A stretch of DNA of 64,000 nucleotides from Aequorivita todarodis (lineage in GTDB: Bacteria > Bacteroidota > Bacteroidia > Flavobacteriales > Flavobacteriaceae), in NCBI RefSeq assembly GCF_028561335.1, contig NZ_JAQQTG010000015.1:127433-191432 (forward strand). Direction: 5' to 3'. The position numbers were made by a program, and so were the translations under genes. A model generated the notes under the pieces. That model saw only the letters and a list, made by a program, of their open reading frames with translations, was not told the origin of the DNA and did no database searches. Below, one piece after another: positions 42,010-43,626 of this stretch. Every line of letters begins with the position of its first letter. Within the stretch, counting starts at the first letter, position 1.

Positions 42010-42107
42010 CATTTTGTGTTAAAATTGTTCGTTATTTTGTTAAAATTTAAAGAAAAATGTTTTAACTTTAGTTCCGTTTATTCAACAACCTGACCAATTT
42101 TACCCTT

Positions 42108-42278
42108 ATGCTTCATTGGAAGGCAATATATATAATTTTAGCCATAGTCTTTGGAGTCGTTGGTTTTATCGGTATTGGTGATGGAGGGCTGCAGCCGGCC
42201 AAATATATTTGCGGGATATTTGTAATCGTATTGTTGACGTTCTGGGCCACGGATATTCTGTGCAGAAAGCGCGGATAA
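42108..42278 (+). CDS. 56-residue membrane protein, DUF1328-like (tentative)
   Basis: A small gene below common length limits. It begins MLHWKAIYIILAIVFGVVGF, followed by IGIGDGGLQPAKYICGIFVI, and ends DILCRKRG. Two membrane helices flank a Gly-rich loop; this layout resembles the DUF1328/YtjA group (M-L-x-W start, GF-x-GI motif), but I cannot confirm it. It ends about 70 bp before the TPP riboswitch on the same strand. Confidence 0.7.
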   Translation: MLHWKAIYIILAIVFGVVGFIGIGDGGLQPAKYICGIFVIVLLTFWATDILCRKRG

Positions 42279-42303
42279 AAAATTAGATGTTAAAGTTTTG
42301 ATA

Positions 42304-42331
42304 TTGAGTCAATCCAATTCGATATTTTTTG
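42304..42331 (+). promoter_or_regulatory. Possible promoter of the TPP riboswitch RNA
   Basis: TTG (42304-42306) is followed about 16 bp later by TATTTTTTG (42323-42331), a near match to TAnnTTTG with one extra base. Transcription would start just before the riboswitch P1 stem. Confidence 0.35.
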
Positions 42332-42346
42332 TATTTTTATCAAACT

Positions 42347-42431
42347 ATCATATCGGGGTGCTTAAGTTTAAACAGCTGAGAATATACCCGTAAAACTTCG
42401 AAACGGATAATGCCAGCAGAAGGAATATGAT
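42347..42431 (+). promoter_or_regulatory. TPP riboswitch (thi-box), without a downstream thiamine gene
   Basis: All conserved parts of the TPP aptamer are present. P1 is atcatat (42347-42353) with atatgat (42425-42431), fully paired. P2 is cgggg (42354) with cccg (42387). The CTGAGA box is at 42376-42381. The pyrophosphate sensor GGATAATGCCAG is at 42405-42416, and a P4 stem is cttc (42396) with gaag (42419). The RNA binds thiamine pyrophosphate. A terminator follows within 5 nt, and the next gene (prfB) is on the opposite strand, so no target gene is visible. Confidence 0.93.
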
Positions 42432-42435
42432 TTGC

Positions 42436-42480
42436 AAAGGGAACGAAGATTTTTTCAAATCTTGTTCCCTTTGTTTCTTT
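42436..42480 (+). terminator. Terminator directly after the TPP riboswitch
   Basis: aaagggaacgaagattt (42436-42452) and aaatcttgttcccttt (42457-42472) pair with one bulged base and a four-base loop, followed by gtttcttt. It points in the plus direction and could also slow prfB transcripts coming from the other side, though that side lacks a U-run. Confidence 0.88.
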
Positions 42481-42518: not shown

Positions 42519-43626
42519 TCAAAGTTCATCCGTTTTCTCCTTCTGCCCAGTCATCATCAAATACGCTTTCAAAAATTCATCAATCTCGCCATCAAGCATA
42601 GCGTCAGTGTTTCCCGTTTCGTGGCCCGTACGGACGTCTTTTACCAATTTATAGGGGTGCAAAACATAATTGCGTATCTGCGAGCCCCACTCAATGGCTA
42701 ACTTGCTGTCCTCAATTTCGGCCCGCTGTGCCAGTTGTTTGCGCAACTCAATTTCATAGAGCTGCGATTTCAACATTTGCATCGCCTTTTCGCGATTGTC
42801 CAGCTGGCTGCGGGTTTCGCTATTGTGGATAATGATTCCGGTAGGGTGGTGGGTAAGGATGGCCTTCGTTTCCACCTTGTTTACGTTTTGGCCACCAGCG
42901 CCGCTGCTTCGGGCAAAATCCCACGAAATATCGGCAGGGTTTATTTCAATCTCGATGGTATCATCCACCAAAGGATATACATACACACTTGCAAAGCTGG
43001 TGTGCCGTTTCGCATTGCTGTCAAACGGGGAAATGCGCACCAAGCGATGAACGCCGTTCTCGCTTTTTAGCCACCCAAAGGCGTATTCGCCCTCAATTTC
43101 CAGTGTTACGGTTTTCACGCCGGCAACATCGCCTGCCTGAAAGTTGAGTTCCTTTACTTTGTAATCGTTTTTCTGCGCCCACATGAGGTACATGCGCATC
43201 AGCATTTGTGCCCAATCGCAGCTTTCGGTACCGCCGGCGCCGGCAGTAATCTGTAGTACGGCGCTCATATCGTCGCCCTCTTCGCCAAGCATGTTGCGGA
43301 ACTCCAGTGCTTCAATCGCATTTTCCGCCTTTTCAAAAGCAGCGTTTACACTTTCTGCTTTTCCTTCGCCTTCCTTGTAAAATTCGAGCAGTATTTCTGC
43401 CTCTTCGGTAAGGTTTTTCGCAGTTTCATAATCGGTGACCCATTTCTTTTTGGTCCGAAGCGTTTTCATAAACGCTTCCGCTTCGCGCGGGTTGTTCCAA
43501 AAATTGGGGTCAAAGGTTTTTTCTTCGTCGTTGGTAATCTCTATGCTTTTGCCAGCAATGTCAAAGATAGCGCCTCAAGGCATCTAGCCGCACCTTAAGG
43601 TCTTTTATTTGGTCTGTTGTGGTCAT
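42519..43626 (-). CDS. prfB: Peptide chain release factor 2 with programmed +1 frameshift
   Basis: The gene is in two frames. Frame 1 starts at 43626 (MTTTDQIKDLKVRLDALRRY) and reaches CTT at 43566-43564, followed by an in-frame TGA (43563-43561). Slipping by one base at CTTTGAC continues as DIAGKSIEITNDEEKTF and joins the long frame through EAFMKTLRTKKKW to 42519, giving 368 residues. The stop is the UGA that RF2 itself recognises, so RF2 autoregulates. The GGQ motif of peptide release is present (RSSGAGGQNVNKVETK). An upstream ATG at 43632 is also possible. A plain frame-based gene call would begin too late, at 43469. Confidence 0.95.

Follow-up and report, generated by a model that had tools for sequence, protein, structure and literature searches.

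Riboswitches acting in trans are rare, according to PMC7266159. In Listeria, the SAM riboswitches SreA and SreB (Loh et al. 2009, as related in part of PMC8079631) consist of an aptamer and a terminator released as a small RNA able to pair with a distant mRNA, and the RNA described here resembles them in this layout; SreA, however, also controls a downstream operon in cis (same part of PMC8079631), whereas our RNA is without a cis gene, and no conserved same-strand downstream gene of the SreA kind was found at the 48 loci whose context was read. Rli55 (PMC8079631) is similar in carrying an aptamer in a non-coding transcript, as is an sRNA from DebRoy et al. 2014, which PMC7266159 cites; the riboswitch of Rli55 decides whether a downstream protein-binding RNA body is made. 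At our locus, by contrast, the conserved stretch ends with the terminator, and no such body follows. The sRNA of DebRoy and colleagues, which is riboswitch-controlled, reportedly comes from Enterococcus. A convergent downstream gene is common to our element and to the antisense SAM-I riboswitch of C. acetobutylicum (part of PMC2258182), but our element shows no visible anti-terminator and has no conserved convergent partner. In the same part of PMC2258182, Barrick and Breaker report a handful of aptamers located away from cognate genes, and leave open whether these work in trans or were orphaned recently. With the TPP riboswitch itself (RF00059, THI element), the RNA shares the P1-P5 fold, the GGGGUGC and CUGAGA motifs, the UAAU of L5 and a P1 that closes the aptamer; it differs in that it was not found before a thiamine gene at the 48 loci, that G60 and G78 are mostly replaced, that the C58-G81 pair of P4 has become U58-A81, and that most of the relatives tested fall under the gathering score of the family. 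None of the literature searched here described a TPP aptamer RNA of the free-standing kind, a statement confined to that literature.

The element lies in the window, that is, the whole stretch of 64,000 nucleotides of Aequorivita todarodis DNA that was analysed, and its parts and neighbours are listed in Table 1. A preliminary description had credited it with every conserved part of a TPP aptamer. The match to RF00059 amounts to 50.3 bits, with E 7.6e-9 in a scan of 701 bases and 8.7e-9 against the whole 3.33-Mb genome; since this is less than the gathering score of 54.3 bits, a default Rfam scan of the window returns no entry; the covariance search that had been proposed gives a match below the cut-off. 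P1, CTGAGA and GGATAATGCC are in place, as is C77 (E. coli thiM numbering, used for the whole pocket), but P5 is reduced to two GG/CC pairs, P3 is a short bulged stem, and positions 60 and 78 are C and A, which leaves the claim of completeness only partly standing. The segment 42340-42480 (141 nt) folds at -36.1 kcal/mol (z -3.1), and none of 200 shuffles was equally stable. The terminator stem begins 2-3 nt past P1, and not 5 nt as had been described; the hairpin proper spans 42434-42474 and is followed by a T-rich tail up to 42480. Reading the element by eye, we saw no anti-terminator. A small ORF starting from the AUG directly after GAAGGAAU was also considered and rejected by eye: indels of 1-2 nt in the terminator loop shift its frame among Aequorivita, and the AUG is missing in several other genera.

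Table 1. Positions, in the window, of the element, its predicted signals and the adjacent genes
Feature	Position	Strand	Evidence
Small membrane protein gene upstream, DUF1328-like, neighbour only	42108-42278	+	21.2 bits, under Pfam cut-off of 27
Upstream promoter motif TGTTAAA (predicted)	42288-42294	+	37 nt ahead of -7 box; GTTAA[AG] counts in relatives
-7 box TATTTTTA, Bacteroidetes type TAnnTTTG; predicted start about 42345-42347	42332-42339	+	TAnnTTT[AGC] counts
TPP-type aptamer, P1-P5	42344-42441	+	RF00059, 50.3 bits; covariation over 59 relatives
P1, 5' strand	42347-42353	+	Partner 42425-42431; compensatory changes in 7/7 P1 pairs
J3-2 CUGAGA, pyrimidine-sensing T-loop	42376-42381	+	CTGAGA 54/58, CTGAAA 4/58
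P4-L5-P5 arm, rebuilt: U58-A81 pair, C60, A78; L5 AUAAUG kept	42396-42422	+	Column tallies against 44 other TPP elements
GGATAATGCC	42405-42414	+	Conserved aptamer motif
P1, 3' strand	42425-42431	+	Fold and covariation
Terminator hairpin GCAAAGGGAAC...GUUCCCUUUGU and U-rich tail	42434-42480	+	Fold; 8 stem pairs near-invariant over 59 relatives
prfB, convergent neighbour, not regulated in cis	42519-43469	-	Pfam PCRF and RF-1 domains

Upstream of the aptamer, the sequence has the layout of a promoter, and its proximal box resembles the Bacteroidetes -7 consensus TAnnTTTG (as given in part of PMC7366714). The combined pattern occupies 42288-42339. A TAnnTTT[AGC] box precedes 54 of 58 elements, and 53 of these boxes begin 18-24 nt before GGGTGC, compared to a mean of 17.3 and a maximum of 33 in shuffles. 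The distal motif GTTAA[AG], searched 60-95 nt before GGGTGC, is found at 19/21 loci of the genus and at 28/37 loci elsewhere; shuffled sequences gave on average 1.0 and 1.8 and at most 7 and 6, respectively. The transcript is predicted to start at P1 and, going by these motifs, the RNA would have both its own promoter and its own terminator. A similar TGTTAAA...TAnnTTTA layout is present at 42017-42070, ahead of the DUF1328-like gene. As a marker for a regulon, the strict promoter pattern gave no clear signal, with 3 sites in the organism's own genome and 3 with the reversed control.

Conservation was examined in a set of 28 Aequorivita genomes, where the RF00059 search found copies of the element together with other TPP elements. 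An intact copy is present in 21 of the 28. Mean pairwise identity among these 21 loci is 0.893 from P1 to the T-tail, compared to 0.48-0.49 at 21-110 nt upstream and 0.185 in the 40 nt past the tail. The promoter box together with the 8 nt that follow it reaches 0.60-0.69, and the sequence lying deeper in the prfB end 0.55. A covariance model built for the element, R1, matches 24/28 genomes, three of which (G020, G021 and G022) have no intact element. In G022 the aptamer and the -7 box are both degenerate as read by eye; in G021 the aptamer is gone and the hairpin alone is retained, so the hairpin may double as the terminator of the upstream gene; and in G020 (L082/L113) the 5' half is replaced by a foreign-looking, GC-rich coding sequence, the break being a probable assembly chimera. 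Two of these loci are the decayed copies recorded in Aequorivita: L112, where aptamer and -7 box are degenerate and by eye appear to have decayed together, and L114, where the aptamer is lost and the hairpin retained. R1 has no match in the remaining four genomes (G006, G016, G017, which is 87% complete, and G024), and the element is therefore dispensable. Of the genomes lacking an intact copy, G006, G016, G021, G022 and G024 are near-complete.

The element recurs in many marine flavobacteria. Across the family, R1 gave 35 matches of at least 60 bits in 33 of 397 genomes (an even draw from a larger group, with strict filters); three of the 33 are Aequorivita, and the carriers belong to 23 of the 237 genera sampled. 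In all 35 the hairpin stem comprises 10 pairs or more, and 31 fit AAAGRRAA...TTYYCTTT. The carriers identified by a pattern scan, 27 of whose 31 loci were confirmed by R1, include Aequorivita, Gelidibacter, Hanstruepera, Winogradskyella, Luteirhabdus, Arcticiflavibacter and Pukyongia. Two copies per genome were found at L068 (929-1066 and 3884-4020, 3 kb apart), in G235 and in G291. Among 20 relatives tested, 6 reach the Rfam gathering score and 14 are below it, as is the copy of the window; default annotation therefore overlooks most copies.

With a broader model, R2, run across the order and the class (395 genomes each), matches above 70 bits were confined to the element's own family. The AAAGGGAA hairpin was absent from the 43 weaker order and class loci that were read out, and these weaker matches look like ordinary cis riboswitches, with the exception of L115. 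This locus, in G057, carries a different free-standing TPP aptamer with G60 retained, another terminator sequence and a convergent gene, and is possibly an independent or an ancestral form. An R2 recount within the family gave 37/397 genomes at E 3e-8 or better, a figure that includes at least two non-members (G213, whose cis element exceeds the threshold and stands immediately before an ORF, and G057, of another type), as well as the candidate G330 (71.2 bits) and G249. A viral collection yielded two pattern matches, neither of them an element, and a phage collection yielded none.

Base pairing was then assessed on an alignment of 59 elements, which was fitted to the structure model and so leans its way. 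Of its cells, 97.1% pair, and compensatory changes occur in 27 of 38 pairs, distributed over P1, P2, P3, P4 and P5, the last with two modelled pairs. None of 500 shuffles, which ignore relatedness, attained any of the five measures used, and structures slid along the alignment were 41-54% paired. The aptamer pairing, whose loss in relatives would have spoken against a functional RNA, has thus been kept. The eight terminator pairs formed by AAAGGGAA with UUCCCUUU behave differently: they are near-invariant over the 59 relatives whereas P1 drifts, which argues that conservation of the hairpin extends to its sequence, beyond pairing alone.

These data weigh on the reading of the element as a relic, that is, a cis riboswitch orphaned by rearrangement. 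The decayed copies L112 and L114 and the score under the Rfam cut-off would fit such a history; it is opposed by the 89% identity amid diverged flanks, by conserved promoter motifs, and by strong covariation over 23 genera. Covariation and conservation over so many genera are a strong argument against recent orphaning, and we hold a relic to be the least probable of the readings considered here. In particular, the idea that the element is the leftover of a thi operon lost in A. todarodis is contradicted by its phylogenetic spread, the decayed copies notwithstanding. The other half of the preliminary description, a free RNA that is no dead relic and possibly works in trans, is well supported by the promoter motifs, by the covarying aptamer and its terminator in 23 genera, and by neighbours that change and are unrelated; the search for this RNA in close relatives, which had been suggested as a check, returned it intact in the 21 Aequorivita genomes and gave the matches in 33 family genomes mentioned above.

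The hairpin itself is not unique to the RNA. The pattern AAAGGGAA-N6..34-TTCCCTTT occurs in 27/28 genomes of the genus, at 0-5 sites each, compared to 0-1 sites for the reversed pattern. A second palindromic hairpin, AAAGGGAACC..GGTTCCCTTT or a near form, exists in 20/28 Aequorivita genomes (for example at G002:C3:231200-231224 and G007:C1:2980110-2980134); it is not within the window, shares a contig with the RNA in 16 genomes, at a distance of 5-14 kb, and at the loci read is apparently a terminator between two other genes.

Genomic context was analysed at 48 loci (21 from Aequorivita and 27 others), using mechanically defined ORFs of at least 100 aa, which are not gene calls. The upstream ORF is on the same strand in 36/48 loci, on the opposite strand in 11, and missing in one short locus. 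In principle, the upstream gene could simply own the whole element as an elaborate terminator or 3' end, as the 36 same-strand loci, the hairpin kept without an aptamer in G021, and the resemblance of same-stem hairpins elsewhere in the genus to ordinary terminators would allow. At the 11 opposite-strand loci, however, read-through from the upstream ORF cannot make the RNA; moreover, a conserved promoter lies between upstream ORF and aptamer, and the aptamer is conserved in its own right. We therefore judge a plain 3' end very unlikely.

Downstream, the first ORF is convergent in 41/48 loci and on the same strand in 7. In the window it is prfB, as had been described. Nineteen of the 48 first ORFs were assigned to prfB by BLAST and 28 were run through Pfam, where 22 obtained a family and 6 had no match; the last one, at L017, is a BLAST relative of that of L011. 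The families include zinc-binding dehydrogenase, HisIE-type, M28 peptidase, fatty acid hydroxylase, GNAT, RecG and NAD(P)H-binding proteins, racemase, chloride channel, beta-lactamase-type, Usp, PIG-L, outer membrane efflux and GHL10, and surface proteins with bacterial Ig or sorting domains. No thiamine family was found by BLAST or Pfam among the first downstream ORFs of the 48 loci, so that the downstream thiamine gene looked for in relatives did not materialise. The downstream gene varies from genus to genus and is mostly convergent, and the element is therefore no cis regulator of any conserved gene. One lower-scoring member, L219 in G249, might be a cis-regulating one: a same-strand, non-thiamine ORF with MRJP/SGL domains starts about 30 nt past its hairpin, which is of the GGGGGAA type. 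For prfB, on the minus strand at 43560-43566, CTTTGAC contains a TGA that ends the short upstream frame MSMTTTDQIKDLKVRLDALRRYL, and a +1 shift enters the long frame; we take this arrangement to be the classical RF2 programmed frameshift motif.

The predominance of convergent neighbours raises the question of an antisense switch, in which ligand-controlled read-through would yield RNA antisense to whichever gene is convergent, in the window prfB. Such a mechanism has been proposed for the C. acetobutylicum SAM-I riboswitch (part of PMC2258182), and the 41 convergent loci would suit it. It is difficult to reconcile with a convergent gene that changes by genus (prfB, HisIE-type, RecG, chloride channel, outer membrane efflux and others), with the 7/48 loci having a same-strand next ORF, and with a strong terminator for which no anti-terminator was seen. 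We consider this reading unlikely.

If the RNA is free-standing, what it senses becomes the central question, and the pocket was therefore compared between 58 free-standing elements (the 59 minus the chimera L082) and 44 other TPP elements (47 minus L112-L114). The 44 were chosen by R2 match; they include the free-standing L115 and two thiC elements of the genus, exclude 27 elements of a receptor gene described below, and the remaining ones are presumed to stand before a gene. TPP riboswitches strongly conserve J3-2, U59, A80, G60, C77 and G78; of these, G60, C77 and G78 lie at the metal coordinating the pyrophosphate, and G78 makes direct contact (PMC3764141). The pyrimidine pocket of J3-2 (U39-A43) is kept, with CTGAGA in the window and in 54/58 elements; U59 is retained in 51/58 and A80 in 49/58. 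G60, on the other hand, is found in 7/58 free-standing elements compared to 42/44 others, and G78 in 5/58 compared to 33/44, while C77 is at 40/58 and 31/44. U58 and A81 are each present in 57/58 free-standing elements and in 4/44 of the others. A cruder text match gave a similar picture for G60 (10/55 compared to 43/43). Some divergent members, L215 for example, seem by eye to have a closed P4-P5 bulge. By these tallies, the pyrimidine half of the pocket is kept and the pyrophosphate half rebuilt. Since both G60 and G78 are mostly lost, TPP binding is doubtful; the claim that the RNA binds TPP is weakened by the replacement, in most members, of the two residues handling the pyrophosphate.

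The strongest rival to a ligand-responsive RNA comes from these same data. The aptamer architecture (T-loop and L5-P3 docking) may have been exapted as a stable fold with no sensing at all, the RNA then being a constitutive sRNA or a protein-binding RNA. The replacement of G60 and G78 across most of the set, the bulge seemingly closed by eye in the divergent L215, the lack of a visible expression platform and the conservation in sequence of the terminator stem are all in line with such a scaffold. The 54/58 elements that keep the pyrimidine-contacting CUGAGA, with U59 in 51/58 and A80 in 49/58, are not, and the cis elements of the receptor gene in the same genus are likewise without G78 (27/27). 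Loss of G78 therefore need not by itself abolish sensing and, taken alone, says little. On balance we regard a ligand-free scaffold as rather doubtful.

The absence of any thiamine gene, as initially described, holds for the neighbourhood of the element, but the genome does contain a TonB-type receptor gene, with an inferred role in uptake, preceded by a cis TPP element. This gene is present in 27/28 genomes of the genus and, by sequence motifs, a cis TPP aptamer lies upstream of it in 27/27 loci, the organism's own included; by sequence, G78 is lost in all 27, yet they fit a pattern requiring G60. An Rfam scan of ten of these elements gave 9 TPP matches at 23-35 bits, far under the cut-off, and none for L177. 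The low score is probably due to a long and variable P3: at L158-L184, P3 is in many Aequorivita a long, variable stem of short repeats, for example GAGTTATGAGTTATG and its complement. When 44 kb of the organism's own genome were scanned, its element reached 31.2 bits (E 0.024), and the genome-wide RF00059 search, which reported one TPP site, missed it (a false negative). That the receptor imports thiamine is suggested by its cis element and by the analogous Bacteroides system (part of PMC5613172). Besides the free-standing RNA, the organism thus appears equipped with a cis TPP switch of the ordinary kind. ThiC is encoded in 2/28 genomes of the genus, both with a TPP riboswitch upstream of thiC in addition to the free-standing element, and had no match in the organism's own genome. 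Thiamine pyrophosphokinase (PF04263) was found in 0/28 genomes, the organism's own included, the control being positive in 7/14. Duplexes computed with RNAduplex between the RNA and the leader of the TonB receptor gene in 20 genomes had z values scattered from -4.2 to +0.4 relative to letter shuffles, in a calculation that ignores internal structure and is dominated by full-length pairing.

Conservation, covariation, promoter and terminator motifs, a free-standing context and a changed pyrophosphate pocket are all direct results of the computation. We consider it fairly probable that the element is a dedicated non-coding RNA gene of about 135 nt, with its own promoter and terminator and a ligand-responsive TPP-type fold, that acts in trans. 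We infer that it would be transcribed from its own promoter, TGTTAAA standing about 37 nt ahead of a TAnnTTTA -7 box, and that the RNA would stop at its own terminator, leaving no gene under cis control. A thiamine-type ligand, held by the retained pyrimidine pocket, would most likely change the fold or the stability of the RNA, which would then affect distant targets in trans, either RNA or protein, perhaps making contact through the sequence-conserved terminator hairpin. A more specific history, which we put forward tentatively as one possibility, is that a TPP aptamer was freed from its genes before many Flavobacteriaceae genera radiated, that its pocket was rebuilt for thiamine, TMP or the HMP half, and that the RNA reports the level of this compound to distant targets.

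The RNA would be a riboswitch-type aptamer employed as a free RNA. It would also give studies of ligand specificity a naturally altered TPP pocket to work with, and the set of elements assembled in the family is large enough to bear on the question of Barrick and Breaker (PMC2258182).
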